From: Longimicrobiales bacterium
GTDB lineage: Bacteria; Gemmatimonadota; Gemmatimonadetes; Longimicrobiales; Gaopeijiaceae
DNA length: 64,000 nt
Assembly: GCA_951813395.1 (NCBI GenBank)
Contig: OX638356.1
Coordinates: 3,670,501 to 3,734,500, forward strand
Direction: 5' to 3'
Under the pieces are notes generated by a model. The model worked only from the letters and a program-made list of their open reading frames with translations, was not told where the DNA came from and did no database searches. Shown here one piece after another: positions 21,121 through 53,706 of this stretch. Positions within the stretch are counted from its first letter, which is position 1. Every line of letters starts with the position of its first letter. The position numbers and the translations under genes are program-made.

Positions 21121-24108
21121 ATGACATTGCGCTACGGCATCATGGCGGGCCTGTTCATGCTTCTGGGCACGGGTGAAACCCTGGCCCAGACGCGTGTTCT
21201 CACGGGCGCCGTCACGGACGTCACCACCGGACAGCCCATCTCGGGCGCGGCCGTCGCCGTCTCGGGGACGACTCTCGGCACCTTCACGGCAGATGACGGC
21301 AACTTCGCCGTCTCCGTGGGGGCGGGCGAGGTGGTTATCGAGATCAGCATGCTGGGATACCAGCCGGCGTCGGTCACCGTACCCGAGGGCACGAACAACA
21401 TCAGCGTCAACCTCCGGGTGGACGTCCTGAACCTCGACGAGATCGTGGTGACGGGACAGGCCACCGGAATCTCCAGGAGGAACCTTGCCAACGCGGTCTC
21501 GACGGTGAGTGCCAGGGACCTCGAGAGGGTGCCCTCCGCTTCCGTCGAGCAGGCGCTACGCGGCAAGGTCGCCGGAGCGAACATTCAGTCGAACTCGGGC
21601 GCTCCGGGCGGGGGCATGCAGCTCCAGCTCCGCGGAGTGTCCACGATTCTCGGCAACCACACGCCGCTCTATGTCGTGGACGGCGTAATCGTGAGCGACG
21701 AGACGATCCCATCCGGGGTACACACCGTTACCGTCTCCTCGTCGAACCCTGTGCGCGGAGGCTCGCAGGACAACTCCGCGAACCGCATCGCGGACCTGAA
21801 CCCGTATGACATCGAGAGCATCGAGGTCCTCAAGGGCGCATCCGCGGCAGCCATTTACGGGTCGAAGGCCAACAACGGCGTGGTGATCATCCGCACCAAG
21901 AGGGGCCGGGTCGGGGCGCCGCAGTTCAACGTCACGCAGCGGTTCGGCTTCTCCCAGCTCTCCAACAAGCTCGGTCTCCGCGAGTTCACCTCCATGGAAG
22001 AGGCAGTGGAGTTCTTCGGCCCCCAGGCCGCGGACCACTGGCAGTCCGGCAGGTTCTTCGACCACGAGGAACTGCTGGCCGGCAACGAGCCCCTCTCCTA
22101 CGAGACTTCGGCAAGCGTGAGCGGGGGTACCCAGGACACGCGCTACTACGCCTCCGGTCTGGTCAAGCACGATGGCGGCATCATCGACAACACCTTCTAC
22201 AACAAGGAGTCGCTGAAGCTGAACATCGATCAGACACTGGGAGAACGGGTCTCGTTCAGCCTCAACACCAACGCGATCCACACGTTGGCGGGCCGCGGCA
22301 TCACCAACAACGACAACCGCAGCATCAGCTACTACATGACGCTCCCGTCGACGCCCAGCTTCGTGGATCTGCGGGCCGTCTGCGCCGACGGAAGCCGCCA
22401 GGCCGACATCGACGACTGTCCCAGCGGCACCGGCACCTATCCGAGGAACCCGTTCGCGTCGTCGAACATCCTCGAGACCGCCTCGCTGGTGCGAAACGAC
22501 GAAGAGGTATGGCGGTTCGTGGGTTCGGGAAACCTGACCTTCGACGCCATCACATCGGCCACGCACAACCTGCGGCTTAGCGCCACCGGCGGCATCGACT
22601 TCTACAACCAGAAGAACGAACTGTTTTCGCCGCCCGAGTCGCAGTTCGAGCCCAACGACGGGCTTCCCGGAACGTCGGTCCTCGGATCGGCCTACAGCCA
22701 GTACATGAACGCCAACATGAACGCGGTCTACACATTCAACTCCGACGCCTTCCAGTCGACCACGTCGTTCGGCACCCAGTACGAGATTCGCGACCTGGAC
22801 GTCAGCAGCACCATCGCGAAGAACCTCATCGGCGGTTTGCAGAACATCGACCGGGGCACGGCCACCGAGGTCCGTCAGGACCGTGAGCGGGGGGTCGACC
22901 TCGGCATCTTCGCCCAGGAAGAGCTGCTGATGCTGGATGAGCGTCTCCTCCTGACGGCGGGAATGCGCGCCGACCGCAGTTCCAACAACTCCAACACCGA
23001 CGAGTTCCACTTCTACCCCAAGGTCGCGGCCTCCTACCGGTTCCCGATCGGCAACGACCTGCTGGAAGAGGTGAAGTTCCGCGGTGCATGGGGCCAGTCG
23101 GGCAACCAGCCGGTCTACGGACAGAAGTTCACCGAGTACGAAGGGCGAAACATCGGCGGGCTGCCGGCGTTGCGGGTGCAGGGCGCCACAGCGGCGACCG
23201 ATCTGCGTCCCGAGCGGCAGACCGAGATCGAGGGCGGCGTCGACGCCACCCTGTTCGAGGACCGCGCAACGCTCGAATTCACGTACTTCAAGAAAAACGT
23301 GACGGACGTGATCCTCGAGCGGTCGCTCGCACCGTCCACGGGCTTTGTCGAGGCGATCTTCAACGGCGGCGAGATCCAGATCTGGGGAATCGAGACCGCG
23401 CTTACCGTGGTGCCGTTCTTCAGCCGCAACCTGCAGTGGACCTCGCGCGCGACGTTCAGCATGGATCGCAGCGAGGTGATGGCGCTGCCGGTCCCCCGCT
23501 TCACCGTCCAGGGCTTCGGGTACTTCTACGGAACCACGGCGGTCGAGGTCGGGAGGTCGCTCACGCTGCTCTGGGGCAACGGCCCCGACCCCGAGACCGG
23601 CGAGGTTGGCGTGGGCCCCCTGGCGGAATCCAACGCGGATTTCCGCATGGGCTTCTCCAACGATGTCAGCATCGGGCGGTTCAACGTCTATTCGACGCTG
23701 GACTGGCAGAAGGGCGGTACGGCCAACAACCTCACCCAGTTCCTCTTCGACCTGACGCGGAACACCGAGGACTGCAACAACCTGGTCGACGGCGAGAGCG
23801 TCTGCGTGAAGCGCAACCGGGAGTTCCCCCAGAATACCGGGACGTACTTCCAGGACGCTTCCTTCGTGAAGCTGCGCGAACTGACCGTGAGCTACGACCT
23901 GCCGGAGGACATGGTGGCGGGGATTTGGAGCGGCGCCCGGCACATTCGGCTGAACATGAGCGGCCGCAACCTGCTGACCTTCACCGACTACGCCGGCCTC
24001 GATCCCGAGGTGAGCAACTTCGGGAGCGAAGCGGTCGGACGTGGCCAGGACGTGGCGCCCTTCCCACCCAGCCGGACCTTCTGGCTCTCGGTGAATGTGG
24101 GCTTCTGA
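21121..24108 (+). CDS. SusC/RagA-family TonB-dependent transporter
   Basis: 995 residues. Signal peptide (GLFMLLGTGETLAQ), a carboxypeptidase-like regulatory domain (about 25-105), a TonB box-like segment LDEIVVTG, a plug domain with ALRGKVAGANI and PLYVVDGV, the SusC hallmark DIESIEVLKGASAAAIYGSKA, and a 22-strand barrel ending FWLSVNVGF. It imports large substrates across the outer membrane together with the SusD-like lipoprotein encoded next. AAAGGAGG precedes the ATG. Neighbouring S9-type genes suggest peptides rather than glycans as the substrate; this is inference. Confidence 0.95.
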   Translation: MTLRYGIMAGLFMLLGTGETLAQTRVLTGAVTDVTTGQPISGAAVAVSGTTLGTFTADDGNFAVSVGAGEVVIEISMLGYQPASVTVPEGTNNISVNLRVDVLNLDEIVVTGQATGISRRNLANAVSTVSARDLERVPSASVEQALRGKVAGANIQSNSGAPGGGMQLQLRGVSTILGNHTPLYVVDGVIVSDETIPSGVHTVTVSSSNPVRGGSQDNSANRIADLNPYDIESIEVLKGASAAAIYGSKANNGVVIIRTKRGRVGAPQFNVTQRFGFSQLSNKLGLREFTSMEEAVEFFGPQAADHWQSGRFFDHEELLAGNEPLSYETSASVSGGTQDTRYYASGLVKHDGGIIDNTFYNKESLKLNIDQTLGERVSFSLNTNAIHTLAGRGITNNDNRSISYYMTLPSTPSFVDLRAVCADGSRQADIDDCPSGTGTYPRNPFASSNILETASLVRNDEEVWRFVGSGNLTFDAITSATHNLRLSATGGIDFYNQKNELFSPPESQFEPNDGLPGTSVLGSAYSQYMNANMNAVYTFNSDAFQSTTSFGTQYEIRDLDVSSTIAKNLIGGLQNIDRGTATEVRQDRERGVDLGIFAQEELLMLDERLLLTAGMRADRSSNNSNTDEFHFYPKVAASYRFPIGNDLLEEVKFRGAWGQSGNQPVYGQKFTEYEGRNIGGLPALRVQGATAATDLRPERQTEIEGGVDATLFEDRATLEFTYFKKNVTDVILERSLAPSTGFVEAIFNGGEIQIWGIETALTVVPFFSRNLQWTSRATFSMDRSEVMALPVPRFTVQGFGYFYGTTAVEVGRSLTLLWGNGPDPETGEVGVGPLAESNADFRMGFSNDVSIGRFNVYSTLDWQKGGTANNLTQFLFDLTRNTEDCNNLVDGESVCVKRNREFPQNTGTYFQDASFVKLRELTVSYDLPEDMVAGIWSGARHIRLNMSGRNLLTFTDYAGLDPEVSNFGSEAVGRGQDVAPFPPSRTFWLSVNVGF

Positions 24109-24129: not shown

Positions 24130-25503
24130 ATGATCAGACAAACGGGCCGTCTACTGACGGCAGGTCTCGTCGCAACCGTGTTCACGGCGTGCGATCTGAC
24201 CGTACCGGACTACAACAACCCCAGTGTGGAGGACCTGCAGACCAATCCGAACAGCGCCGCAATCGCCGCCGCTGCGCAGGGTCTCCTCTTCGACACCCGC
24301 CTCACGGCGGCCGACATGGTGCAGTGGGTCGGCGCCTTCGGCCGTGAGGTGTACCCCATGGCGCCCACCGGATCCTCCCTGCCCGGCAGCGTGCGGGATC
24401 CCTGGACGCAAACACTCTTCGTAGGCACGCAGGTATGGGGCGAGGCGTATCGGAACATGCGCAACGCCAACCTGCTTCTGGACGCCCTGGCAGCCGCGGA
24501 AATGCCCGAGCCGGACAAGGCGGCGGTGCGCGGCTTCGCCAAGACCATTCAGGCGTATGACCTGCTTCACATCGCAGTGACCCGCCGGCATCTGGGCGCA
24601 CCGATCGCAGTGGGATCCGATCCCAACGATCCGCCGGCACCCATCGTGGGCGAGAATGAGGTCTACGGCCACGTGATCAGCCTGCTCGACGAGGCGCGCG
24701 GCGACCTGCAGGCCGCTTCGTCCTTCCCCTTCGGCGTCACGACGGGGCTTTCCGATTTCTCCTCGCCGGGTGACTTCATCCGCCTCAACCGTGCGATCAA
24801 GGCGCGTGCCGAAGTGCATCGCAGCAACTGGTCGGGCGCCATGCAGGCGGTGGCCGAGTCCTTCATGGGCACGAACATGCCCCTCGACTACGGCGCCTAC
24901 CACAGCTGGTCGGTCAACTCGGGCGACCTGGTCAACCCGGCGAACCGCCCCGACCTCCTGTGGGCCAACACCCGCTTCCGCAACGAGGCCCAGCCGCGTG
25001 CGGACGGGTCGCCGGACCTGCGCTTCCAGAACAAGTTCAAGGTGGTGCCGGCGTACCAGCTGCTCGAAGTCAGCTCGGACCTGCAGTACACGCTGTACGA
25101 GAACCCGAGCGCGCCGTTCGTGTGGGTCAAGAACGAGGAGCTGATCCTGATCCGTGCCGAGGCGAACCTGGCGATGGGCAACCGGGCGGCGGCGATCGAC
25201 GACATAAACCTCATCCGCGTGAACTCCGGGGGCCTGGAACCGCTGCCGGATCCCTACCCCGGGTCCGACGACGACCTGCTCAACGAACTGCTGTACAACA
25301 AGCGGTTCTCGCTGGTCTTCGAGTGGGGGCACACCTGGATCGACATGAACCGCTACGGGAAGCTGCTCGATATCCCCGTGCTGGGTCCGCCCAGCGCCGA
25401 TCAGCGGCTACACGACGCGATGCCGTATCCGCTCAGCGAGTGCCTGCCGCGGGAACCGGAGGTTCCGTCCGGATGCATGACACAGCAGGGGTACATCCCC
25501 TAG
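24130..25503 (+). CDS. SusD/RagB-family substrate-binding lipoprotein
   Basis: 457 residues. The signal ends in a lipobox (VFTAC), then DLTVPDYNNP, a typical start of mature SusD homologues. It is helical with TPR-like segments; the second half holds NEELILIRAEANLAMGN and a C-terminal R-x-x-x-L-x-FEWGHTWIDMNRYG, the region in which RagB proteins end with E-R-R-E-L-F-x-E-G-x-R-W-x-D-L-x-R. It caps the SusC barrel and captures substrate at the cell surface. Its start is 21 nt after susC, preceded by AGGAG. Confidence 0.93.
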   Translation: MIRQTGRLLTAGLVATVFTACDLTVPDYNNPSVEDLQTNPNSAAIAAAAQGLLFDTRLTAADMVQWVGAFGREVYPMAPTGSSLPGSVRDPWTQTLFVGTQVWGEAYRNMRNANLLLDALAAAEMPEPDKAAVRGFAKTIQAYDLLHIAVTRRHLGAPIAVGSDPNDPPAPIVGENEVYGHVISLLDEARGDLQAASSFPFGVTTGLSDFSSPGDFIRLNRAIKARAEVHRSNWSGAMQAVAESFMGTNMPLDYGAYHSWSVNSGDLVNPANRPDLLWANTRFRNEAQPRADGSPDLRFQNKFKVVPAYQLLEVSSDLQYTLYENPSAPFVWVKNEELILIRAEANLAMGNRAAAIDDINLIRVNSGGLEPLPDPYPGSDDDLLNELLYNKRFSLVFEWGHTWIDMNRYGKLLDIPVLGPPSADQRLHDAMPYPLSECLPREPEVPSGCMTQQGYIP

Positions 25504-25904
25504 GACGGGCCGGCAAAGCGAGGCTGACGGTCCTCCTCGCCGCGGTGGCCGCCGGATGCGCTTCCTCGCAGGAGCGCTCCGGCGAGCCGCCGGGCGGGGA
25601 GCCGTCGGAAGTGCGAGCCGGGGCCGCACAGAGCACGTTGCACGTCACCAACCGCAACTGGCTGGACATGCGGATCTACGCGCTGCGGGGATCCGAGCGC
25701 ATCAACCTGTTCTCCGTCACGAGCATGAGAACCGACTCGGTGCCGCTGCCCGACAGGATCCTCACAGGCGGTGGATTCCGGCTCCTGGCCGATCCCGTGG
25801 GCGCCGACCCGTACCGCAGCAACACGATATATCTTCGTCCGGGCCAGACCGTCTGGTGGCGACTCGAGAACACACTGAACCAGTCCAGCATCTGGGTCTA
25901 CTGA
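25473..25904 (+). CDS. Small lipoprotein overlapping the SusD gene
   Basis: 143 residues from the ATG at 25473, which lies inside the 3' end of the SusD gene, a 31-base overlap in another frame. A signal with lipobox VAAGC is followed by a low-complexity linker and a small beta domain (STLHVTNRNWLDMRIYALRGSERI ... PGQTVWWRLENTL). I do not recognise the family with certainty; small beta-sandwich lipoproteins of this kind follow SusCD pairs. Its position between SusD and the S9 genes suggests it is part of the uptake machine. Confidence 0.75.
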   Translation: MHDTAGVHPLGRAGKARLTVLLAAVAAGCASSQERSGEPPGGEPSEVRAGAAQSTLHVTNRNWLDMRIYALRGSERINLFSVTSMRTDSVPLPDRILTGGGFRLLADPVGADPYRSNTIYLRPGQTVWWRLENTLNQSSIWVY

Positions 25905-25926: not shown

Positions 25927-27888
25927 ATGACCAGTTATCGGAAACGGGCAGCGGCGCGTCCCATGGCAGCCGCCACTGCCTGGAGTGCCGCCCTCTTCCT
26001 GGCGACCGTCACCGCCACCGGAGCCCACGCCCAGAAGGCCGACATCCTCACCATCGACCAGCTGCTATCCATCGAATCGGTCGTCTCCGGCTCGCCCGCC
26101 TGGTCGCCAGACGGGTCGGGAATCCTCTTCCAGTCCTCACTCTCGGGCGGACTGATGACGCTGTCCCCCGACGGCGGCTTCCCCACCCGCCTGCCCATCG
26201 ACCTCGGCAGCTCGGGCCACTTCCTGGCCTCGCAGATGCCCGGCTGGTCCCCGAACGGCAACTGGATCTCCTACGTGTCCGACAAGGGCGGCTCGCCCGA
26301 GATCTGGGTGTGGTCCCCCCGGGACGGCACCGAGATGCAGTTGACCAACCTCGGCGGCCGCATCAACTCGATGACCTGGTCGCCCGACGAGCGCTCGATC
26401 GCGTTCGCCGGCGACCGCTACGGCAACTACGACATCTGGACCGTCGAAGTCGCCACCCGGCGCGTCCGGCGCATCAGCAACGACAAGCTCTACGAGGTCT
26501 TCCCGACCTGGACCCCCGACTCGCAGCGCATCCTCTACGTGCGTCTCAACGACACCTGGGAGGACCACGACGTGATCGAAGTCGCCCCGGACGGCACGGG
26601 CGCGCGCACCGTGCTCCAGGACACCGACTTCTTCGACTACGGCGCCGGCACCACTTTCGCCTATCCGCGCGTCTCGCCCGACGGCAGCCAGATCCTCTTC
26701 CGCTCGCACCGCAGCGGCTGGATCAACTACTGGCTCGCTCCGAGCGGGGGAGGAGAGCCCCGTCCGATCGCGGCCGCCGAGGCCGACCAGAGCAGCGCGG
26801 CCTGGTCGCCGGACGGCAGCATGATCGCGTACACCGAGAACCACAACGGTCATCACGACCTGCGCGTGGTCTCGGCGGACGGCGGCAAGCCCCGCGTGCT
26901 CGTGTCCCCCGACGGCGGGGTGGCGTCGAGTCCCTCCTGGTCGCCCGACGGCGGCTCGATCGCCTATCTGAAGGCCGACCTGGTCAATCCCCAGGACCTG
27001 TATGTGGTGTCTTTGGAGGACGGCCACAGCCGCCAGCTCACCTACTCCATGCCCGCCGGCAACTTCGGGGCGCGGTTGATCCTGCCGGAGAAGGTCCACT
27101 ATCCGAGCACGGACGGGTACTCGATCCCCGCGTACCTGTACCGCCCGGTGGGAGGCCCGGCGGGCGAACGCGCACCCGGCATCCTGTGGATCCACGGCGG
27201 CCCCACCTCGCAGTTCAACGACACCTTCCAGCAACACGTGCAGTTCTTCGCCCAGCGCGGATACGCGGTGCTGTTGCCCAACATCCGGGGCAGCTCCGGG
27301 TACGGGAAGACCTTCGCCGACGCCAACAACAATTGCTGGGGCCACTGCGACCTCGAGGACGTGCTCGCGGGCGCCGACTTCCTGAAGACGCAGCCCGAGG
27401 TCGACCCGGACCGGATCGGCCTCACAGGCACGAGTTACGGCGGCGTGATGAGCATGTACGCCGCGTCGTTCGCCCCGGATGCCTTCCGAGCGATCGTCCC
27501 CGGCTCGGGCTACGGCGACTGGATCCACTTCTACCACGGCGAGAACGAGCTGCGGCACATCAAGCTCCTGGAGCACGAACTCGGGCCCTTCGAGACGAGC
27601 CAGGACGTCTGGCGCAACAGCTCGGCGATCTACGAGATCGACAAGGTCTCGACCCCGATCTTCATGGTGCACGGCGAGGGGCGTTACCCGGGCTCCGACC
27701 AGTCCGAGATCTTCGCGCGCGCGCTCGAGAACTTCTACAAGCCGTTCGAGTACACGACCTACCCGAACGAGAACTACTACGTCTACGGCAAGGCCAATCG
27801 GCGCCAGATGCTGCATGACATGCTGGACTTCTTCGGCCGCTTTCTGAAGGACGAAATGGTGGACACGGGCGAAAGGACGAAGCCATGA
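25927..27888 (+). CDS. Exported S9-type peptidase-like protein 1 (non-canonical triad)
   Basis: 653 residues: signal peptide, an N-terminal beta-propeller made of PD40/TolB-like repeats (repeated W-SPDG-S-I-Y), and a C-terminal alpha/beta hydrolase domain. The nucleophile is S503 in GTSYGG. In the positions where S9 peptidases have the catalytic Asp (HGEDD) and His (GEGHG) this protein has HGEGR and NENYY (Y617). A CWGHC motif lies before the nucleophile. The missing Asp and His are shared with the next gene, so this may be a distinct subfamily or non-peptidase. ATGA overlap with the next gene. Confidence 0.88.
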   Translation: MTSYRKRAAARPMAAATAWSAALFLATVTATGAHAQKADILTIDQLLSIESVVSGSPAWSPDGSGILFQSSLSGGLMTLSPDGGFPTRLPIDLGSSGHFLASQMPGWSPNGNWISYVSDKGGSPEIWVWSPRDGTEMQLTNLGGRINSMTWSPDERSIAFAGDRYGNYDIWTVEVATRRVRRISNDKLYEVFPTWTPDSQRILYVRLNDTWEDHDVIEVAPDGTGARTVLQDTDFFDYGAGTTFAYPRVSPDGSQILFRSHRSGWINYWLAPSGGGEPRPIAAAEADQSSAAWSPDGSMIAYTENHNGHHDLRVVSADGGKPRVLVSPDGGVASSPSWSPDGGSIAYLKADLVNPQDLYVVSLEDGHSRQLTYSMPAGNFGARLILPEKVHYPSTDGYSIPAYLYRPVGGPAGERAPGILWIHGGPTSQFNDTFQQHVQFFAQRGYAVLLPNIRGSSGYGKTFADANNNCWGHCDLEDVLAGADFLKTQPEVDPDRIGLTGTSYGGVMSMYAASFAPDAFRAIVPGSGYGDWIHFYHGENELRHIKLLEHELGPFETSQDVWRNSSAIYEIDKVSTPIFMVHGEGRYPGSDQSEIFARALENFYKPFEYTTYPNENYYVYGKANRRQMLHDMLDFFGRFLKDEMVDTGERTKP

Positions 27889-29912
27889 GCAAGTTCCCGA
27901 AACCTCCAGGGCCGCTCGTGGCGGCGTTTGCGCTCACGGCGGGGTTTGCCTGCCAGTCCGAAGCTCCGGCCGGGGCCGGTACGGGCGGCCCGGCGGCGTC
28001 CATGGACGCGTCGGCGCCCGACGGAGCCATCTCGGCCGCCGAGCTCGTCGACCTGACCGCGGCCGTGGGCGGCAGCCACCCGCCGAAGTGGGCGCCGGAC
28101 GGGTCGCGCATCACATTCGTATCCGGCGGCGACCTGGGCGCGGTCGATACCGAAACCGGTGCCTTCGAGGTCCTCACCCGGGACCTGTCGCTGAGCGGCG
28201 TAGGGTCGCTGGGGGCACCGCAGCCCAACTGGTCGCCCGACGGGCAATGGATCGCCTACACGTCCGACAAGAGCGGCGCACCGGACATCTGGCTGTGGTC
28301 GGCCCTGGAGCGGGACGCCTCCCGCGTCAGCATCGACGTGCAGCTGACCGAGTTGTCCGCGCGCGCCAACGGGCTGGCGTGGTCGCCCGACGGCAGCCGG
28401 ATTGCGTTTTCCGGCGACCGTTTCGGCAACATGGACATCTGGACGGTGTCCGTGCCGGACGGCCAGCTTCATCGCCTGACCGACGACCCGCTCTACGAGG
28501 GCTACCCCAGCTGGACACCCGACGGCAGCCGGCTGCTCTACGTGCGCATGGACGACCGCTGGGTTGACCACGATGTCATCGAGGTGGACCCGGATGGCGG
28601 CAATCCTCGCACCGTCGTGCGCGACACGGGCTTCTTCGACTACCGGGCCGGGCGCGCGTTTGCCTCGGCGCAGGTGTCGCCCGATGGCGAAACCGTGCTC
28701 TTCCGGTCGCAGCGCAGCGGTTGGCTGAACTTCTGGGTGGCGCCGCGCGACGGCAGCGCCGAGCCCCGCCGGATTGCCGCGTCCGACTACGATCAGAGCG
28801 ACGCGCGCTGGTCGCCCGACGGAAGCTGGATCAGCTACACCGAGAATCGGGACGGTGTCCACTCGCTGCGCCTGGTGTCGGCGGACGGCTCGAAACACAG
28901 GGTGCTGGTGGACCCCGAAGTGGGCGCGGCGCTGCGCGCGGAGTGGGCGCCGGGCGGCGACAGGGTCAGCTACACGATGGAGACTCCGACGCGGCCCGCG
29001 GAGCTGTTCGTGATGGACCTGGAGTCGGGCGAGAGCACGCTCGTTCACAGCGAGGTCGCGGCGGGTTCGGCCGAGAAGCTGCACATGCCCGAGAAGGTGA
29101 GCTATCCCAGCAGCGACGGCCTCACGATCGAAGCGTACCTGCACCGGCCGCCGGGCGCGGCGGGGGGTGCGGAGCCGGGTGAGCGGTTCCCGGGCGTGAT
29201 GTGGATCCATGGCGGGCCCACGTCGCAATTCGACGACCAGTTCCGAAGACATCAGCAGGTGCACTTTTTCGCGCAGCGTGGCTACGTCGTCCTCATGCCC
29301 AACATCCGCGGAAGCTCGGGGTACGGCCTGGAGTTCGAGGACCTCAACAACGGTTGCTGGGGCCACTGCGACCTGGAAGACGTGCTCGCGGGGGTGGACT
29401 ACCTCAAGACCCTGCCCGACGTGGACCCCGACCGGATCGCGGTCACCGGGACAAGCTACGGCGGGATCATGACCATGGACGCGGTAGCGTTCGCGCCGGG
29501 GGTGTTCCAGGCCGCGATCGCGCTGTCCGGCTACGGCGACATGACCGACTTTCACACCAGGGTGCACGAGCTGCAGCACATCAAGCTGCTCGAGTACGAA
29601 CTGGGGCCCTACCCCGAGAACCGGGACGTGTACCTGAACAGCTCGGCGATCCTGAAGGCACACCAGGTGACCACGCCGACCTTCGTCATTCAGGGCGAGG
29701 GGGTCGCGGCCGACTGGCGGCTGCGGGAAGGACAGCCGCAGGCCGCGCTCGACTTCGCGCGCAAGCTCGACCAGCACTACAAGATCGTGCGCTACAAGGC
29801 GTACCCGGGCGAGGGCTACTACGTGTACGGCCGGGACAACACCATCCAGAAGCTCCACGACATGCTGGACTTCTTCGAGGAGTTCCTGGTGACGGAAATC
29901 GAAGGTATGTGA
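27885..29912 (+). CDS. S9-type peptidase-like lipoprotein 2 (paralogue of the previous gene)
   Basis: 675 residues. A lipoprotein signal (TAGFAC), then a PD40 beta-propeller and an alpha/beta hydrolase domain closely similar to the preceding protein. S524 sits in GTSYGG; the usual Asp is not found in the QGEGVAAD segment, and the usual His is Y645 in GEGYY. CWGHC and HIKLLEYELGP are shared with the paralogue. It starts inside the stop of the previous gene (ATGA), so both are made together. Likely surface or periplasmic processing of peptides brought by SusCD, if active. Confidence 0.88.
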   Translation: MSKFPKPPGPLVAAFALTAGFACQSEAPAGAGTGGPAASMDASAPDGAISAAELVDLTAAVGGSHPPKWAPDGSRITFVSGGDLGAVDTETGAFEVLTRDLSLSGVGSLGAPQPNWSPDGQWIAYTSDKSGAPDIWLWSALERDASRVSIDVQLTELSARANGLAWSPDGSRIAFSGDRFGNMDIWTVSVPDGQLHRLTDDPLYEGYPSWTPDGSRLLYVRMDDRWVDHDVIEVDPDGGNPRTVVRDTGFFDYRAGRAFASAQVSPDGETVLFRSQRSGWLNFWVAPRDGSAEPRRIAASDYDQSDARWSPDGSWISYTENRDGVHSLRLVSADGSKHRVLVDPEVGAALRAEWAPGGDRVSYTMETPTRPAELFVMDLESGESTLVHSEVAAGSAEKLHMPEKVSYPSSDGLTIEAYLHRPPGAAGGAEPGERFPGVMWIHGGPTSQFDDQFRRHQQVHFFAQRGYVVLMPNIRGSSGYGLEFEDLNNGCWGHCDLEDVLAGVDYLKTLPDVDPDRIAVTGTSYGGIMTMDAVAFAPGVFQAAIALSGYGDMTDFHTRVHELQHIKLLEYELGPYPENRDVYLNSSAILKAHQVTTPTFVIQGEGVAADWRLREGQPQAALDFARKLDQHYKIVRYKAYPGEGYYVYGRDNTIQKLHDMLDFFEEFLVTEIEGM

Positions 29913-29947: not shown

Positions 29948-30306
29948 TGCTGGCTGACGCACACGGGCGGGTGGCACGTGGGCGAGCGCCGAGGTGGGTC
30001 CGCACCGACGTGGGTCCGCGCCGAGTTTGCGCCAGCGTTGTTACCCAGGGCGGCGCCCGCCGACTCCCACCCATGTCAGGCGGCTCGCCGACTCCCTCCC
30101 CGCATCAGGCGGCTCGCGTCCGCGTTCCGTTGATCACCCCCTCCGGTGCCGGCTGCCCCATCCCCTCGCGCCGTCCCATAGCGACATGCCCGTGTCCCTG
30201 CTTTTGCCGCGGAAGCGCGGGACGTGGGGCGGGCGAGGTGTCGCGTGGCCAGCCTCCGCCGGGCTCCCCGCCATCGCCGGGCTCTCAGCCGCCCGTGCCC
30301 GGCCGC
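29948..30306. other. Repeat-rich non-coding region left of the HNH gene
   Basis: About 360 bases without a supported gene. It holds short direct repeats: GTGGGTCCGC twice near 29995-30025, and TCAGGCGGCTCGC twice near 30074-30120. It also contains the left copy of the 30-bp repeat listed separately. This looks like sequence accumulated around a mobile element. Confidence 0.5.
30185..30214 (-). repeat. 30-bp repeat, left inverted copy flanking the HNH gene
   Basis: Read on the minus strand it starts TTCCGCGGCAAA and ends GGGACACGGGCATG. It matches the copy at 31933-31962 at 26 of 30 positions but in the opposite orientation. The CATG ends face outward from the HNH gene on both sides. Confidence 0.75.
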
Positions 30307-31572
30307 TCACCCGCCAGCGCCTGCCTCGATGGCCTCCCGTGCCGCGGCCTCGATCTCCCACGGGATGGCGCCGTCCGCCAACCGGGCCGCGCCGTTGTAC
30401 ATCTGCCCGGGCCGAAGCGGTGGGGCGGGGGGCAGGGCGGGCGTCAGCGCCGGCTCGTTCACCGGCGGCGGCACGCTCCCGAGCATCTTGCCCCCGCGCG
30501 TGAAGAACACCGCCTGACCCTTCGCGTCGAGCGCCATCCGCACCCGCCCTTCGTGCACGAGCCGGTGGTGCCGCCGGCAGAGCAGCACCGTGTTCGCCAG
30601 ACTCGTCTCCCCGCCGTCGGCCCAGTGCCTGACATGATGCGCCTCCGTGAACCGGCCCCCGCAGCCCGGATACCGGCAGCCGCGGTCCCGCTCCTCGAGC
30701 GCCCGGCGGATGTGCGGCGGGATGGTCCGCGTCTTCCGCCCCACGCTGACTACCTTCCCCTCCCGGTGCAGCATTTGCACCAGCGACGCATCGCACGCCA
30801 TGCGCCGCGACGTCTCCGCGCTCACCCGCACCCCGTCGACCTCCGACCGGCCCCCCTCGCCGTGCTCCTCCAGCGTGGCCATCTCGGCATGCACCGTCAC
30901 CTGGTACCGCTCGGCCCGCGTGCCGCTGTGCGCCGCTTTCAGCCCCGCCGCCAGCGCCCGCTCGGCCACCAGTCCCGCCGCATCGGCCCTGCGCTGGCGG
31001 CTCGTCGGCCGCGCCGCGGGGTCCTCGCCCCGGTACAGCGCGTCCGTTGCGGCCTCGATCGCCCGCATCAGCACGGCCCCGGCCTCGGGCTCGAGCCTTC
31101 CGCGCACCACGTACGTCCCGTCGGCATCGATCACGACCGAGAACGCGCGCCGCTGGTGCCGCACCTCCTCGGCCGTCAACTCGCCGTCGCGCGACAGGTG
31201 CCGCCATCCCCGCACCATCCGCTCGAGCTCGGCGGCGGAGCACTTGTCGGCCAATTCGAGCAACTTGGCCTCGGTCACCCGGGTGGCCACCCGTGTAATC
31301 GCCCGCACCTTGGTGTAGGACAGCCGCCCGGCCTTCATCTCGGCCGAGGTCTTGGGCAGGTCCTGTAGCGCGTGGGCGACGCGCACGTTCTCGCGGCAGG
31401 TGCCGATCGTGCGGCCGGTGCTCCAGGCGAGCCACTCGGCGCACGAGTTGAAGGCGTCGGCCCACCCCTCGCGGCGGTCGAACTCGGCGATGAGGGTGAG
31501 CATCTCGTAGGTGGCGATGTTGATCCGTGCGGCGAGTTCGACGATGCGCTCGCCAAGTTGGGCGATGGTCAT
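30307..31572 (-). CDS. DUF222 / HNH endonuclease protein (13E12-repeat type)
   Basis: 421 residues. The long helical DUF222 domain covers about 1-280. The C-terminal HNH nuclease domain (about 290-365) has the zinc/HNH pattern DRGCRYPGCGGRFTEAHHVRHW, then G-G-E-T-S-L-x-N and CRRHHRLVHEG. Proteins of this kind are abundant repeated genes in actinobacteria (13E12 family) and other high-GC genomes, and are thought to behave as selfish or mobile nucleases. It has GGAG before its ATG. It is bordered by inverted copies of a 30-bp repeat. Confidence 0.9.
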   Translation of the reverse strand: MTIAQLGERIVELAARINIATYEMLTLIAEFDRREGWADAFNSCAEWLAWSTGRTIGTCRENVRVAHALQDLPKTSAEMKAGRLSYTKVRAITRVATRVTEAKLLELADKCSAAELERMVRGWRHLSRDGELTAEEVRHQRRAFSVVIDADGTYVVRGRLEPEAGAVLMRAIEAATDALYRGEDPAARPTSRQRRADAAGLVAERALAAGLKAAHSGTRAERYQVTVHAEMATLEEHGEGGRSEVDGVRVSAETSRRMACDASLVQMLHREGKVVSVGRKTRTIPPHIRRALEERDRGCRYPGCGGRFTEAHHVRHWADGGETSLANTVLLCRRHHRLVHEGRVRMALDAKGQAVFFTRGGKMLGSVPPPVNEPALTPALPPAPPLRPGQMYNGAARLADGAIPWEIEAAAREAIEAGAGG

Positions 31573-31932: not shown

Positions 31933-31962
31933 TTCCGCGGCAAATCCCGGGACACCGGCATG
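31933..31962 (+). repeat. 30-bp repeat, right copy 1
   Basis: Begins TTCCGCGGCAAATCCC and ends GACACCGGCATG. It is inverted relative to the copy at 30185-30214 and is preceded by CCCCCCACGT. Confidence 0.75.
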
Positions 31963-32120: not shown

Positions 32121-32150
32121 TTCCGCGGCAAATCCCGTGACACTGGCATG
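32121..32150 (+). repeat. 30-bp repeat, right copy 2
   Basis: Direct copy of the repeat at 31933, differing at 2 of 30 positions (CCCGTGACACT for CCCGGGACACC). Both are followed by a further CT. Confidence 0.75.
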
Positions 32151-46292: not shown

Positions 46293-49232
46293 CTAGAACA
46301 CCACCTCGACGCCGAACCGGAACGTGCGGTTCGGCGACAGCGTGATGCTGCTCTCGCTGCCGAGCGCCAGACCGCCGCCGAAGGTCAGTCCGTTCAGCTC
46401 GCCGTCGACCAGCGCGTTGCGCGACCAGATCCAGAGGTTGCGGCCGGCGGCATACACGGTTGCGCGGTTGGCGTTGATACGCCCGGCGATGCTCTCGGGC
46501 AGCGCGTAGCGCACCGAAACTTCTCGGAGCTTCAGGTAGTCGCCGTCGTAGACGAACGCGTTGCGGGCGTTGCTCTGGCTGTACCTGCCACGCTCCGTAC
46601 CGTCCGTGTTGTACTGCACGGGGAACGTATACGCGCATCCCTCCGCCGCCCCGTCCCCGGTCCCGCAACGCACCAGCTCACGACGGTAGACGCCGTTGAA
46701 GGTCGCCCACACGGAACCCCAGTCGAACACCTCGTGGCCCCCGGCCCAGTCGGCCAGGGCGGAGATGGTCAGGTCGTTGGCCACGGAGAGGGTCGTGTTG
46801 ATGCCTCCGGTCTTGTCGGGTGTCGGGAATCCGCCGGTGAACTGGCGTTCCGAGGCGTCGAAGAGCCCGTCGCCGTTGGTGTCCGAGGGCATCGTCACCC
46901 ACCAGGCTCCAATCGGTCCGCCGCGACAGGTGTCCTCGTTCCCTTCCTCGGTCATCATCCAGCAACCGGTGACCCGCTTCTGGGATCCGTCAACCGAGAA
47001 GTCGGGGACTCCGCCCATGTCGGCGATCCGGTTGTCGTTGTAGGCGAAGGTGCCGCCGAGCGACCATGCCAGCATGCGCGTGTTGAGCAACTGGACGTTG
47101 ACGGCCACTTCGACACCCCGGTTCAGGATCTCCCCCACGTTCTGCTGCTGCGTGCCCAGGCCGGTAACCGGCTGCCGGGGCACCCGGAAGAGCGCGTCCG
47201 TTGTACGCGCCTCGTAGATGGTGGCGTTGAGGCCAACGCGGTCGGACCAGAGCGCGGCGTCGATTCCCGCCTCGATGGTGGATGTCTTCTCGGGTCTCAA
47301 ATCGAGGTTGCCCGGATTCGCGAAGCGCGGCGCCGACTCGCCCCGGAAGGGTTGCGCGGAATACGTCCTGTCCTTGAGGAAGGCACCGGGGAACTTGCCC
47401 GTCTGCCCGTAGGCCACCCGGATCTTGAAGTCATTGACCAGGGGAATCCGGAGGTCGTCCGACAGGATGTACGACCCCGTCGCCTTGGGATACAGCTCGG
47501 TGTCGATGTTGTCCCCGAAGCTCGATCCGGCATCGATGCGGAAGCCGCCGCCCAGATACAGCTTGTCCCAGAGGCTCACCTGTTCGTCGAGATACACGCC
47601 CCCGTTGAACACCTCGACGTTGCCCTCATACGCCGTGATGAGCGCGGCGGAGTCGATATCGTTGGTTCCGGGGAGCGCGAAGGTGCGCCCGTAGGCGTTG
47701 ATGAGGCTCATGTCCTCGCGGAATCCCTGCACGCCAACCGTCAATGTGGAGCCGAGCCACCCGCTCCCGTTTTCCCAGGCGTAGGTAGCACCCGCATCCA
47801 TCGACGCGGAGATGAAGGATCGGTCGCGACGGGTGATTTCTCCGGTTGGGTCGTCTACGGTGAATCCGATCGGCTGCACGACACGGAGACCGTTCGTCCG
47901 ATGGTCCAGTCCCACATTGAGTTTGGCAGAGAGGTCTTCCAGGATGTTCCAGCGGAGTCCGCCCGCGAAGATGGCCCGGCTGACCGCCTCGTCGATATCG
48001 GGCATGAGGAAGATCCGCAGCGCCTCGTGCAGGTCGGACGCTCCCGAGAAGAAGAGCGCGTCACCGACCTCGAAGGTGGTCAGCGGGTCGTTGATGGCGG
48101 CGCCGTTGTAGAGGCGCTGGAAGTTGTGCCGGACGTAGCTCCCCGAAAACTCGATCGTGAAGTCGTCTCCCAGCGAGGCCTGCATGCCGCCGCGAAGGTT
48201 GTAGTTCGTGCTCCCGTCCTTGGGCTGGGTCCCCGTGCGGTCTTCAAGACGGCCGCCGACGCTGTAGGTGACGTCGGCGGTCCCCCCGGATACGCCGAGG
48301 TAGTAGCTCTGGAGGTCGCCTCGCTTGAAGTAGTTGTCCTGCATGAAGGTCTCGGTGACCTCGCCTGACTCCACCCGTTCCGGGAAAATCAATCGCGTGT
48401 CCAGGATGTTCCAGAGCTCGGGCTGCTCGATGCCCTGCTCGACCCTGGCCGTGAACCGCGGTGCACCCGGGGTCCCCTTCTTCGTGAAAATCTGGATCAC
48501 CCCGGTGGCCGCATCCGAACCATACAGGGTCGAGGCCGCGCCACCCTTCGTTACCTCGATCCGCTCGACGTCGCTGAGGAGCAGGTCGGCCAGCGCCGAC
48601 GACTGCTCCCCGCCGGTCCCGAAGGTGGTCGCGTGGTCGTTGTCCACGCGCACGCCGTCCACGTAGATGACCGGGGTCTGCGGGTTGAAGACCGAGGACA
48701 CACCCCGGAAGTTGATCAGCGAACCCGTCCCCGGTTGCGCGGAAGTCGCGCTGATCGTCGCTCCGGGCACACGGCCCTGGAGGAGCTGGTCGATGGACTG
48801 GACCGGGGCCAGCTCGAAGTCCTCGGCACTGAGCACCTCGACCGAGGTTCCCAGCGCGCGCCGGGTGGTCTCGGCACCCACGCCGGTGACGACGATCTCG
48901 TTGAGCGCGATCGCCGTGGACGACAGCTCGATGTCGGCCGTCACCGTCCGGCCGGCGACCACGTTCACCGTCCGCTCGGCACCTTCGTAGCCGATCAGCG
49001 TCACACGCACCACGTGTTCGCCGGACGGCACGTTCAACATGACGTAGCGTCCGGACGAGTTGGTGATCTGTCCGATTCCGCTCCCCGCGACCAGGACCTG
49101 GGCGTTGGGGAGGGGCCGCCCGGAGGCGCCGTCCAGGATCTGTCCCTGGACGACGCCCGTCTGGGCTTCGGCCGCCGCGGCGCCGACCGTCAGCGCAAGA
49201 AGGGCCGCAAGTGCCGCAGTGCTTTTTTTCAA
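46293..49232 (-). CDS. SusC/RagA-family TonB-dependent transporter (copy A)
   Basis: 979 residues from a TTG eight bases after the SusD stop, preceded by AGGGA. Signal (LAALLALTVGAAAAEAQ), carboxypeptidase-like domain with GQITNSSGRYVMLNVP, LNEIVVTG, plug with DQLLQGRVPGA and VIYVDGVR, SusC motif DVERIEVTKGGAASTLYGSDA, and a barrel ending FGVEVVF. It is very similar through the plug to copy B at 50740, indicating duplication. It would work with the SusD-like protein encoded just before it. Confidence 0.94.
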   Translation of the reverse strand: MKKSTAALAALLALTVGAAAAEAQTGVVQGQILDGASGRPLPNAQVLVAGSGIGQITNSSGRYVMLNVPSGEHVVRVTLIGYEGAERTVNVVAGRTVTADIELSSTAIALNEIVVTGVGAETTRRALGTSVEVLSAEDFELAPVQSIDQLLQGRVPGATISATSAQPGTGSLINFRGVSSVFNPQTPVIYVDGVRVDNDHATTFGTGGEQSSALADLLLSDVERIEVTKGGAASTLYGSDAATGVIQIFTKKGTPGAPRFTARVEQGIEQPELWNILDTRLIFPERVESGEVTETFMQDNYFKRGDLQSYYLGVSGGTADVTYSVGGRLEDRTGTQPKDGSTNYNLRGGMQASLGDDFTIEFSGSYVRHNFQRLYNGAAINDPLTTFEVGDALFFSGASDLHEALRIFLMPDIDEAVSRAIFAGGLRWNILEDLSAKLNVGLDHRTNGLRVVQPIGFTVDDPTGEITRRDRSFISASMDAGATYAWENGSGWLGSTLTVGVQGFREDMSLINAYGRTFALPGTNDIDSAALITAYEGNVEVFNGGVYLDEQVSLWDKLYLGGGFRIDAGSSFGDNIDTELYPKATGSYILSDDLRIPLVNDFKIRVAYGQTGKFPGAFLKDRTYSAQPFRGESAPRFANPGNLDLRPEKTSTIEAGIDAALWSDRVGLNATIYEARTTDALFRVPRQPVTGLGTQQQNVGEILNRGVEVAVNVQLLNTRMLAWSLGGTFAYNDNRIADMGGVPDFSVDGSQKRVTGCWMMTEEGNEDTCRGGPIGAWWVTMPSDTNGDGLFDASERQFTGGFPTPDKTGGINTTLSVANDLTISALADWAGGHEVFDWGSVWATFNGVYRRELVRCGTGDGAAEGCAYTFPVQYNTDGTERGRYSQSNARNAFVYDGDYLKLREVSVRYALPESIAGRINANRATVYAAGRNLWIWSRNALVDGELNGLTFGGGLALGSESSITLSPNRTFRFGVEVVF

Positions 49233-49239
49233 CCGATCC

Positions 49240-50712
49240 CTAGTTGAACGGCGACGCGTTGTTCGCCACCAGGATCCTGTTCATGTCCACGTGCATCGTC
49301 ACCTCGTTCTTGACCAGAGGCGCACCCGGATCCACGCCGTCGTACAGGTCGAGGGGCAAGTAGATGTCCATCGCGTAGCGCGGATTCTGCGGGATATACG
49401 CGGGCACGACCGGCACGGTGCCCGGATCTCCCTCGTTGATGTTGTCGTTCTGGTCGATCTCGCGGAGCATCATCGGGAGCTTGATCCCGAGATCCGCGAG
49501 GCGGCGGCCCTCCAGGAGGAGGATCTCCTGCCGAGCCAGCCACAACGCATGCCACACTTCGTTCGCGCTGCCCAGGCCGGCTATGCTGTCCGCGCTCAGC
49601 GAGGTGCCCGAGATGTACGGAATCTCCAGCCCGTCGCTCGGACGATTCAGCACCAGCCCGGCCCTGTATGGACTGTCGGCGTCGGCTCGAATCAAGATCT
49701 CCGAGCTGCGCGGGCGCAGGCTGAGGTCCGCGTTCCGCCGCTCGTCGATGTCGTCGAAAGACACCATGCCCCGGCCCTTGGCCACGGTGACCGCGCTCGC
49801 CAGATGGCTCCGCGCCTCGCCGACGTTGCCCGACGCCAGCGCGGCCTCGGCAAGGATCAGGTGCATCTCCTCGGCCTTGGCAATCGGGATCGGCGAATCG
49901 CGCTCCGTGTACTTGGGATCCAGGAAATCCAGCCTGGGAAGAGGCTGCATCTCCTGCAGGGCGCGCAGCACGAGGAACGCAACCGGCGTGTTGGTGAGGA
50001 ACTGCTCGTCGTACGAGGGCGCGAAGAGGAAATCGGGATCGGCTCCCAGAACGGCACTCGCCGCGGATGCGGCCGCGCCCGCGTCGCCAAGAAGGCGGTG
50101 TGCCCTGGCCAGCGCCGCGTTTGCCTGCGGCCCGAAGCCCGTCGCTGCCTGCAGGTCGGCGACCGCCCTGGTCAGGGCCGTCTCCGATGGCTGCGGCGAG
50201 CCGTCCTCTTCGTGGGGCACGTTGGAAAAGACCTCGCCCATGGTCAGGAAGGCCATGCCCCGGTAGTAGTGCGCCTCGGCGACAAGGGCCGGCGGCGCGC
50301 CGGGGTCGTTGGGCGCAATCTCGTCGATGACGAAGTCCGCCAGCGCGCGCAGTTCCTGAACGTTCCAGTACACGCCGCTGGCGCTGGTTCCGGTCGAATT
50401 CACCAGATCCGAGGTCACTTCGTGGGGTTCGTCCATGTCCACGATGATCCCCGTGCCATGGATGGAGTAGTTGTCGGTGATGACTTCCGCGACGACGTAG
50501 GCGTTGATCATGCGCGCAAACTGCGCCCTGAGCCCCGGCAGGAGTGCTTCCGTGGGGTTCGTGGCCTCTGCCAGGTCATCGTCGGTGGTCGTCGGATTGC
50601 TCACCTGGGTCGGATCGATAGCGTCACAGGCGGCGACCGTCAGCACGGCGAGCAGCGCCGCGGCAACAGAGCGACCGCCCGTTCCGAGGATCGACATGTT
50701 CTTCTTTCTCAT
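49240..50712 (-). CDS. SusD/RagB-like lipoprotein between two SusC genes
   Basis: 490 residues. ATG 50712 is preceded by AAGGAGA eight bases upstream. A lipoprotein signal (LAVLTVAAC) leads to DAIDPTQVSNPT, as in SusD homologues, followed by TPR-like helices (AHYYRGMAFLTMGE, AALARAHRLLGDAGAA) and a C-terminal half with WLARQEILLLEGRRLADLG. A single SusD serves two SusC paralogues; which one it partners is not decided by sequence alone. Confidence 0.88.
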   Translation of the reverse strand: MRKKNMSILGTGGRSVAAALLAVLTVAACDAIDPTQVSNPTTTDDDLAEATNPTEALLPGLRAQFARMINAYVVAEVITDNYSIHGTGIIVDMDEPHEVTSDLVNSTGTSASGVYWNVQELRALADFVIDEIAPNDPGAPPALVAEAHYYRGMAFLTMGEVFSNVPHEEDGSPQPSETALTRAVADLQAATGFGPQANAALARAHRLLGDAGAAASAASAVLGADPDFLFAPSYDEQFLTNTPVAFLVLRALQEMQPLPRLDFLDPKYTERDSPIPIAKAEEMHLILAEAALASGNVGEARSHLASAVTVAKGRGMVSFDDIDERRNADLSLRPRSSEILIRADADSPYRAGLVLNRPSDGLEIPYISGTSLSADSIAGLGSANEVWHALWLARQEILLLEGRRLADLGIKLPMMLREIDQNDNINEGDPGTVPVVPAYIPQNPRYAMDIYLPLDLYDGVDPGAPLVKNEVTMHVDMNRILVANNASPFN

Positions 50713-50739
50713 TTGTCTGGTCTCCTTGGTCACAGCGGT

Positions 50740-53706
50740 CTAGAACACGACCTCGACACCGAACCTGAAGGTCCGGTTCGGGGAAAGGGTGATGCTGCTC
50801 TCGCCTCCCAGGCGCAATCCGCCGCCACTCAGTCCGTTCAGCTCTCCGTCGATCATCTGGTTCCTGGACCAGATCCAGAGATTGCGACCGTTGGCGTAGA
50901 CCGTCGCGCGTCCGGCTCCCAACGTCCCGGCCCAGTCCTCGGGCAGGACGTAGCGCAGCGAAACCTCCCTGAGCTTGAAGTAGTCGCCGTCGTAGAGGAA
51001 CCCGGATCGGGCCGCGCTCTGGCTGTACTTCCCGCGTACCGTGCCGTCGGCGCGGTACTGCGTCGGGAAAGCGTAGGCACACCCCTCGGCGGCCCCCTCT
51101 TCCATGCCGCACCGAATCCGCTCGCGACGATAGATGCCGTTGAAGGTCGCCCATACCGACCCGTAGTCGAACACCTCATGACCACCGGCCCAGTCCGCCA
51201 GAGCGCTGATGGTAAGGTCGTTGCCGATTGAAATCGTGGTATTGGCGCTGCCGCTCTTGTCAGGCACCGGGAACGAACCCGTGAATTGCCGCTCTGAACC
51301 GTCGGGCAGTCCATCCCCGTTGGTGTCGGTCGGCGTCGTCAGCCACCAGGCTCCGACCGGACCGCCGCGGCAGGTGCTGTCGTCGTTCGGATCGCTTTGC
51401 GTCCAGCAGCCGGTCACGCGCTTCTGTGACCCTTCGGCGCTGAAGTCCGGGACGCCGCCCATGTCGGTCACTTCGTTGTGGTTGTAGTTGAAAGTCCCGC
51501 CGATGCTCCAGGCCAGCGATTGGGTGTTGAGCAGCTGCAGGTTCAGCGCAACCTCGACACCGCGGTTCAGGATCTCGCCGACGTTCTCCTGCTGGATGCC
51601 CTGGCCGGTCACCGGCTGGCGCGGCACGTCGAAGAGCGCGTCGGTGGTGCGGGCCTCGTACACGGTGAAGTCAAGGCCGATACGGTTGCTCCAGAGCGCC
51701 GCGTCGATTCCGGCCTCGATCGTGGAGGTCTTCTCCGGGCGCAGATCGGCGTTGCCGGGATTGGCGAACCTGGGCGCCGATTCGCCGCGGAAGGAGGTGG
51801 CCGAGAAGGTGCGGTCCTTCAGGAAGGCCCCGGGGAACTTGCCGGTCTGCCCGTAGGCGCTTCGGATCTTCAATTCGTCCACGAGTGGCAGGCCGATGTC
51901 CTCGGAGAGGATGTAGGACCCGGTGGCCTTGGGGTAGAATTCGGTGTCGATGTTGTCGCCGAAGCTGGAACCCGCGTCGATTCGGAAGCCTCCGCCAAGG
52001 TACAGCTTGTCCCACAGGCTCAACTGCTCGTCGACGTAGAAGCCGCCGTTGAAGACCTCGACGTTGCCCTCGCCCGCAGTGATGACCGCGGCGTCGTCGA
52101 AGTCGAAAGTGCCGGGGAGCGCGAATGTGCGTCCGTTACCGAAAATGACGCTCTCTTCCTCGCGGAATCCCTGCACGCCCACGGTTGTCGACGATCCGAC
52201 CGTCCCGCCGGCGCTCTCCCAGGCGTAGGTCATGCCCCCGTCCAGGGACACGGAGGTGAAGTTCCTGTCGTACCGGCGGAGGTTGCCGGTGGGTTCTCCC
52301 GGCGTGAAGCCGATGGGCTGGTACGTGCGCTGCTGGTTGTTCCGGTTGTCGGTGCCCAGCGTCATCCTGAAGGACAGGTCGTCCATGATGTTCCAGCGTG
52401 CGCCCGCCGAGAAGATGAACCGGTTGACCGCCTCGTCGATCTGGGGCAGGAGGAAGATGTCCAGGGCCTCGAGCAGCGTTGAAGCGCCCGAAAAGAAGAG
52501 CGCGTCCCCGACCTCGAAGGTGGTCAGCGGGTCGGCGATCGCCGCTCCGTTGTAGAGCCGCTCGAAGTTGTGCCGGACGTAGTTGCCCGAGAACTGCAGG
52601 GTGAAGTCCTCGCTGAGGGACGCCTGCAGGCCGCCGCGGATATTGTAGTTGGTGCTGGCGTCCCTGGGCTGGGTGCCGCTGAGGTCTTCCAGACGGCCGC
52701 TGACACTGTATGTAACCTCTGCGGTCCCCCCGGAAACGCCGACGTAGTAGTTCTGGGCCTGGCCGTTCTTGAAGTAGAGGTCCCGCATGAACCGTTCGGT
52801 GATCTCCCCGGACTCCACGCGCTCGGGGAAGATCACGCCCATGTCGAAGATGTACTTGAGCTCGGGCAACTCGATGCCGCGCTCGATGCGCGCGGTGATT
52901 CTCGGCGCCCCCGGGGTTCCCTTCTTGGTGAAGATCTGGATCACGCCCGTCGCTGCGTCCGATCCGAAGAGCGTCGATGCCGCCCCGCCCTTCGTGACCT
53001 CGATGCGCTCGATGTCGCTGACGAGAATGTCCGCAAGCGCCGACGACTGCTCGCCGCCCGTGCCCGCCGCCGTTGACTGGTCATTGTCGACGCGCACGCC
53101 ATCGACGTATATGACCGGGGTCTGGGCGCCGAACACCGACGAGATGCCGCGGAAGTTGATCAGCGACCCGGTTCCCGGCTGCGCCGAAGTGGCGCTTACC
53201 GTGGCGCCCGCGACACGGCCCTGAAGGAGCTGGTCGACGGATTGCACCGGCGCCAGTTCGAAATCTTCCGCGGAGAGGACCTCGACCGACGTGCCCAGCG
53301 CGCGCCGCGTCGTCTCGGCGCCCACGCCCGTCACGACAATCTCGTTGAGCGAGATCGCGGTCGAGGACATCTGGATGTCGGCGGTGGCCGTCTGACCCGG
53401 CGCGACCGTCACGGTCTGTGTCGCCTGGTCATACCCGATCAGGGTGGCCTGGACCGTGTGCTCTCCGGCGGGGACGTTCAGCAGTACGTAGCGCCCGCTG
53501 GAGTTGGTGAGTTGTCCGATCCCCGTCCCTTCGACGAGAACCTGCACGTTGGAGAGCGGACGCATTGAGGCGGCGTCCACCACCTGCCCCTGCACGACGC
53601 CCGTCTGGGCCAGCGCAGGTGTCGCGGCGGTGGCCGTAAGCGCCAGAAGCGCCAACAGGCCCAGCGCCGCACTGCTTGCAAGTCGACTGAGTTGCATGGT
53701 TTCCAT
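50740..53706 (-). CDS. SusC/RagA-family TonB-dependent transporter (copy B)
   Basis: 988 residues. Signal (LALLALTATAATPALAQ), then the same domain order as copy A: GQLTNSSGRYVLLNVP, LNEIVVTGVGAETTRR, DQLLQGRVAGA, VIYVDGVRVDND, DIERIEVTKGGAASTLFGSDA, and the FGVEVVF end. A second ATG nine bases in (53697) has AAGGA better placed and may be the true start. First gene of the SusC-SusD-SusC group, downstream of gyrB on the same strand after a 180-nt spacer with three hairpins. Confidence 0.94.
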   Translation of the reverse strand: METMQLSRLASSAALGLLALLALTATAATPALAQTGVVQGQVVDAASMRPLSNVQVLVEGTGIGQLTNSSGRYVLLNVPAGEHTVQATLIGYDQATQTVTVAPGQTATADIQMSSTAISLNEIVVTGVGAETTRRALGTSVEVLSAEDFELAPVQSVDQLLQGRVAGATVSATSAQPGTGSLINFRGISSVFGAQTPVIYVDGVRVDNDQSTAAGTGGEQSSALADILVSDIERIEVTKGGAASTLFGSDAATGVIQIFTKKGTPGAPRITARIERGIELPELKYIFDMGVIFPERVESGEITERFMRDLYFKNGQAQNYYVGVSGGTAEVTYSVSGRLEDLSGTQPRDASTNYNIRGGLQASLSEDFTLQFSGNYVRHNFERLYNGAAIADPLTTFEVGDALFFSGASTLLEALDIFLLPQIDEAVNRFIFSAGARWNIMDDLSFRMTLGTDNRNNQQRTYQPIGFTPGEPTGNLRRYDRNFTSVSLDGGMTYAWESAGGTVGSSTTVGVQGFREEESVIFGNGRTFALPGTFDFDDAAVITAGEGNVEVFNGGFYVDEQLSLWDKLYLGGGFRIDAGSSFGDNIDTEFYPKATGSYILSEDIGLPLVDELKIRSAYGQTGKFPGAFLKDRTFSATSFRGESAPRFANPGNADLRPEKTSTIEAGIDAALWSNRIGLDFTVYEARTTDALFDVPRQPVTGQGIQQENVGEILNRGVEVALNLQLLNTQSLAWSIGGTFNYNHNEVTDMGGVPDFSAEGSQKRVTGCWTQSDPNDDSTCRGGPVGAWWLTTPTDTNGDGLPDGSERQFTGSFPVPDKSGSANTTISIGNDLTISALADWAGGHEVFDYGSVWATFNGIYRRERIRCGMEEGAAEGCAYAFPTQYRADGTVRGKYSQSAARSGFLYDGDYFKLREVSLRYVLPEDWAGTLGAGRATVYANGRNLWIWSRNQMIDGELNGLSGGGLRLGGESSITLSPNRTFRFGVEVVF

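Follow-up and report, generated by a model that had tools for sequence, protein, structure and literature searches.

Two adjoining genes of a Longimicrobiales bacterium (Gemmatimonadota; Gaopeijiaceae), here called P1 and P2, encode proteins built like S9 serine peptidases, in which the nucleophilic Ser is retained and the catalytic His and Asp are lost. They lie in a stretch of 64,000 nucleotides, referred to below as the window (GenBank assembly GCA_951813395.1, contig OX638356.1, positions 3,670,501 to 3,734,500 of the forward strand), from a genome of 4.09 Mb in a single contig. Because His and Asp are gone, the ordinary S9 mechanism is unavailable to these proteins, and from sequence comparison we hold, with moderate confidence, that P1, P2 and their relatives may be exported S9-derived proteins which have given up Ser-His-Asp catalysis and act as ligand-binding parts of SusC/SusD-type uptake. 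The two genes and the residues on which the argument turns are as follows.

25927..27888, plus strand: P1, a PD40 propeller and an S9 hydrolase domain without the catalytic Asp and His; signal-peptide-like N-terminus
27885..29912, plus strand: P2, second member of the family, probable lipoprotein, 54% identical to P1
27334..27348, plus strand: CWGHC of P1, residues 470-474, with a Cys pair that is all-or-none in the family
27433..27435, plus strand: Ser503 of P1, retained at the nucleophile position (84/84 members)
27511..27513, plus strand: Tyr529 of P1, family-specific (38/40 representatives, 0/25 in the outgroup)
27556..27558, plus strand: His544 of P1, family-specific (38/40, 0/25), on another loop and the main candidate for a replacement base
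27673..27684, plus strand: residues 583-586 of P1 (GEGR), where the alignment places the loss of the HGxxD Asp
27775..27780, plus strand: Tyr617-Tyr618 of P1, replacing the catalytic His and its neighbour (position 617: Tyr 73, Phe 6, deleted 5 of 84)
29454..29456, plus strand: Ser524 of P2, in GTSYGG
29817..29819, plus strand: Tyr645 of P2, aligned with the His position

Both reading frames were confirmed at these coordinates and overlap by 4 bases. A first, sequence-only reading of the window had described P1 and P2 as tandem S9-like proteins with a PD40 propeller and a conserved GTSYGG, and Pfam indeed finds Peptidase_S9 (E 6e-39 and 7e-38, respectively) and PD40 in both, while the numbering of S503 and S524 proved correct. 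The propeller and alpha/beta-hydrolase architecture of the S9 family is thus present by Pfam in both proteins, and in P1 also by model match, since the P1 model matches chain 8wt1_D along its whole length (VIA Z 32.5, root-mean-square deviation 4.7, 567 aligned residues; HMMER E 3.7e-144). The active-site loops have a predicted local distance difference test score (pLDDT) below 50 in both models, in P1 at residues 455-464, 466-468, 533-551 and 586-590. The substitutions that the same reading had noticed also stood up to alignment with S9 families, including the solved peptidases 8wt1 and 5yzm, on whose conserved His Tyr617 falls. Twenty-five other S9 proteins were aligned with P1 and P2 (20 of the same genome and five of other records, the first open reading frame (ORF) of L075 being left out for its wrong frame), and in these Ser, His and Asp are each present in 25/25; Tyr617 and Tyr645 occupy the His column, and at the Asp of HGxxD P1 reads HGEG-RYP and P2 QGEGVAADWR. 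CWGHC and HIKLLExELGP are common to both proteins, as had been observed.

The census of relatives combined a contig scan, which gave 28 close loci (L001-L028) among its best 80 matches, with a sample of 298 Gemmatimonadota genomes searched at E <= 1e-60 with at most four candidates scored per genome, in which 42 genomes contained family members. From about 90 rows of phylum-sample matches, 40 further regions were picked by hand; after removal of the partial L024 with its broken frame, 89 rows reduced to 84 distinct cores and to 40 clusters at 90% identity, which supplied the representatives. The weakest phylum-sample match had E 6e-147 (leaving aside two short and incomplete matches from a single genome), while the best other S9 protein of the bacterium's own genome reached E 1e-43 with P1 as query, and because of this gap the family appears discrete in this sample. 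The Ser of GxSxGG is found in all 84 distinct members (Gly506 being Ala in 5/84), and His in none of them, which rules out chance as the cause of its absence. Among the 40 representatives Ser is again universal (40/40) and His absent (0/40), and the Asp column holds one Asp and one Glu. New residues have become fixed instead: Tyr618 and His544 are each present in 79/84 members, Tyr618 in 38/40 representatives against 0/25 outside the family. Cys470 and Cys474 are Cys/Cys in 75 of the 84 members and Asp/Gly in nine, never a single Cys, and because the pair is all-or-none, a disulfide is suggested.

No replacement His common to all members was found in the family alignment, where His473 occurs in 28/40, His544 in 38/40 and His630 in 8/40 representatives; the only invariant one is His423, part of the HGGP motif that S9 proteins ordinarily carry in the oxyanion loop, and it is also present in 22/25 of the outgroup. 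His473 of CWGHC was rejected as general base, being Arg, Lys or Ile in 12/40 representatives, and so was His630 (LHDMLDFF), a position at which most P1-type proteins have Leu. Two possible replacement acids, Asp591 in P1 and the AADW Asp in P2, were dismissed because both are variable.

All 40 representatives fall on one side of a branch with a Shimodaira-Hasegawa-like approximate likelihood ratio test (SH-aLRT) value of 100. With this single clade, the shared loss, the fixed new residues and strong purifying selection, the "defined subfamily" proposed from the sequence alone is borne out. P1 and P2 stand in separate branches of the family, which rules out a recent duplication. L183 and L184, the closest relatives found outside the family (31-32% identical to P2), carry both the Asp motif HGEDD and the His motif, as YPNELHGF or YPKEGHGF, and because they do so the clade would most simply have arisen from an intact S9 protein by loss of His and Asp. 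Their addition alters the rooting, in that the FastTree outgroup no longer forms one side of a branch, and the family still remains one group. In one derived branch (L125 and L127-L130) the His loop and His544 are themselves lost and Ser is kept, which suggests that Ser is retained for something that does not require this loop.

The hydrolase domain shows no sign of decay. Ratios of non-synonymous to synonymous substitution rates (dN/dS) are 0.061-0.115 in the P1 hydrolase domain and 0.039-0.099 in that of P2 (seven comparisons each), and 0.143-0.261 and 0.109-0.222 in the respective propellers; for two intact S9 paralogues the values are 0.035-0.070 (eight comparisons) and 0.139-0.232. Judged by these ratios, the domain is under constraint like that of the intact paralogues.

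P1 and P2 close a set of five plus-strand genes lying close together, of which the first three are listed here.

21121..24108, plus strand: SusC/RagA-type TonB-dependent receptor (TIGR04056, 509.9 bits, cut-off 368)
24130..25503, plus strand: SusD-like protein (PF07980, 24.8 bits, cut-off 23.1), with a homologue in 8/8 P1-P2 tandem loci
25500..25904, plus strand: small protein, probable lipoprotein, read by eye from a hydrophobic stretch ending in AAGC

The small ORF has no match in a Pfam search; its homologue is present in 8/8 tandem loci and also in L134. In each of the eight other P1-P2 tandem loci, SusC, SusD and the small ORF precede the pair, and in 40 other regions with flanks of about 4 kb a SusC or SusD match was found in 14, using the SusC and SusD of the window as queries, so that divergent homologues escape. 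A lipobox-like Cys was read by eye at the N-termini of P2-type proteins in 28/28 rows, so that P2 is a probable lipoprotein; P1 has no such Cys. The genome has 21 SusC-type genes above the cut-off, one of which starts 462 bases beyond the point where the match to the intact S9 gene with the best score ends. Two more SusC-type receptor genes are located in the window itself, at 46296-53600 on the minus strand.

How such proteins might work can be sketched as follows. The cavity between propeller and hydrolase domain would capture a peptide-like ligand, which the retained Ser, the HGGPTSQ oxyanion loop and the residues Tyr529, His544, Tyr617 and Tyr618, presumably gathered around the Ser, would hold without cleavage, and the captured ligand would then be handed to SusD and SusC. 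Of the two roles that the sequence-only reading had offered, a different catalytic set-up or binding, the latter is tentatively favoured because the triad partners of Ser are lost and none of the candidate replacement His residues is common to the whole family. A precedent by analogy is the gibberellin receptor GID1, an alpha/beta-hydrolase fold protein in which His is lost and Ser is kept for ligand contact (PMC3531792); like P1 and P2 it has lost His and retained Ser, and it acts by binding, whereas it is a plant hormone receptor outside S9 and keeps its Asp. Surface lipoproteins of SusCD utilisomes (PMC7618045) also have SusC and SusD as gene neighbours, and P2 is probably a lipoprotein as well; those described there serve glycan uptake, and no S9-fold member was found in the literature searches made.

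Several observations weigh against a binding role in SusCD-type uptake. Neither SusC nor SusD was found in any of 20 P2-only loci within the flanks searched, some of which are short, and SusCD is therefore not an obligatory partner. The loss of Asp is incomplete in the clade, since L127-L130 read GEGD with an Asp at approximately canonical spacing. The invariant Ser, the intact GxSYGG elbow and the oxyanion loop would be equally expected of an enzyme, and one branch has lost the near-invariant His544 along with the equally near-invariant Glu-x-Tyr-Tyr motif, which is what would be expected of components of a rewired active site. A serine hydrolase of this kind is the main rival reading, though we consider it unlikely. 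Ser503 would remain the nucleophile and be activated from a new position, either by His544, which follows strand 6 and might work together with Asp531 or Glu615, or by Tyr617 or Tyr618, and the substrate would be less demanding than a peptide bond. Such an enzyme would account for a near-invariant Ser, elbow and oxyanion loop, for the confinement of His544 and Tyr618 to the family and for purifying selection as strong as in intact enzymes. It is at odds with the 5/84 members that still have Ser after losing His544 and the loop, the strand-7 loop offers no conserved acid, and Asp531 is Asn in 4/40 representatives. The bolder proposal that the general base has moved to His544, on the strand-6 side, or to Tyr617/Tyr618, giving a new alpha/beta-hydrolase layout that has spread between phyla in sponge-associated bacteria, seems to us rather improbable.

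We also give little credence to a structural or allosteric role, in which inactive P1 and P2 would pair with one another or with intact S9 peptidases, as DPP6 and DPP10 partner other proteins. The 4-base gene overlap, the recurrence of the tandem in eight other loci and the precedent of DPP10 (PMC4350108) speak for it, but most other loci examined contain a single family gene, and the residues of the hydrolase pocket are conserved beyond the needs of a scaffold. That P1 and P2 are ordinary S9 peptidases, with the missing His and Asp an artefact of misalignment or sequencing, is scarcely credible despite their good overall match to such peptidases, as the same change recurs in all 84 distinct sequences, which come from many assemblies, and in an unambiguous motif context (YPNENYY beside YPNELHGF in an intact relative).

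With S9 peptidases of the acylaminoacyl peptidase type, such as the 8wt1 carboxypeptidase and the Deinococcus S9 protein 5yzm, P1 and P2 have the fold, the Ser motif and the oxyanion loop in common; they differ in lacking the catalytic His and the HGxxD Asp and in having the additional Cys pair, Tyr529, His544 and Tyr618. The best NCBIfam model for P1 is the lasso peptide isopeptidase Atxe2 (NF033523), yet the scores of P1 and P2 are 151.8 and 122.4 bits against a cut-off of 400, and those with DPP5 (NF053518), 150.2 and 124.4 bits, are likewise under its cut-off of 900. Triad-deficient S9 relatives are already known in kind: the inactive S9B proteins DPP6 and DPP10 resemble P1 and P2 in combining a propeller with a deficient hydrolase domain. 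These proteins, however, are reported to lose Ser, and DPP10 to keep His and Asp (PMC4350108), the opposite of the loss seen here. A survey of bacterial prolyl oligopeptidase (POP) subtypes describes high conservation of the triad (PMC4522959), and no bacterial S9 clade lacking His and Asp with Ser retained was recognised in the literature at the level of titles and abstracts.

The family also appears to have crossed phylum boundaries. P2-type genes occur in Acidobacteria-labelled metagenome-assembled genomes (MAGs; L012, L015-L022), and in L016 and L017, for which both values were measured, the P2 proteins are 75.9-76.5% identical to P2 of the window at an rpoB identity of 53%; L012, with a wrong-frame ORF (19-21% to all), was left out of the rpoB comparison. 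Because of this disparity, the nesting of L012 and L020 inside the P2 branch, and a neighbourhood common to L015, L017 and L019 and unlike those of Gemmatimonadota, horizontal transfer between phyla is indicated by the sequences. No transfer to Gammaproteobacteria is claimed: L007 and L008, despite their titles, match one another and a Gemmatimonadota-labelled MAG at 97-99% identity in rpoB, and in L007, L008 and L010 the gene order is that of Gemmatimonadota-labelled MAGs, so that the Gammaproteobacteria titles look wrong. The SB06, RHO, MPMR and MPMW MAGs we take to be of sponge origin. MAG names of the "jk18x" series are found on 12 of the 28 close loci, and this series occurs in an Ircinia sponge study (PMC9531527).

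Downstream of P2, a 30-nt repeat (30185-30214, minus strand; 31933-31962 and 32121-32150, plus strand) brackets a DUF222-HNH gene at 30307-31572 on the minus strand. The repeat occurs 25 times in the genome, against 0 for the control, a copy lies within about 0.7 kb of 11 of the 15 genomic DUF222 places (16 rows, two merged), and at several of these places minus- and plus-strand copies are about 1.7 kb apart. The gene and its end repeats look like a multicopy mobile element.

Because P1, P2 and their relatives match Peptidase_S9 and related models, they are likely to be annotated automatically as peptidases, which may inflate estimates of secreted proteolysis for Gemmatimonadota and for sponge-associated bacteria. 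An invariant Ser combined with lost His and Asp and enzyme-like selection offers a clean natural test of what the Ser of the nucleophile elbow is for after catalysis. If the reading as parts of SusCD-type uptake is true, the family would represent a peptidase fold turned into a nutrient receptor.

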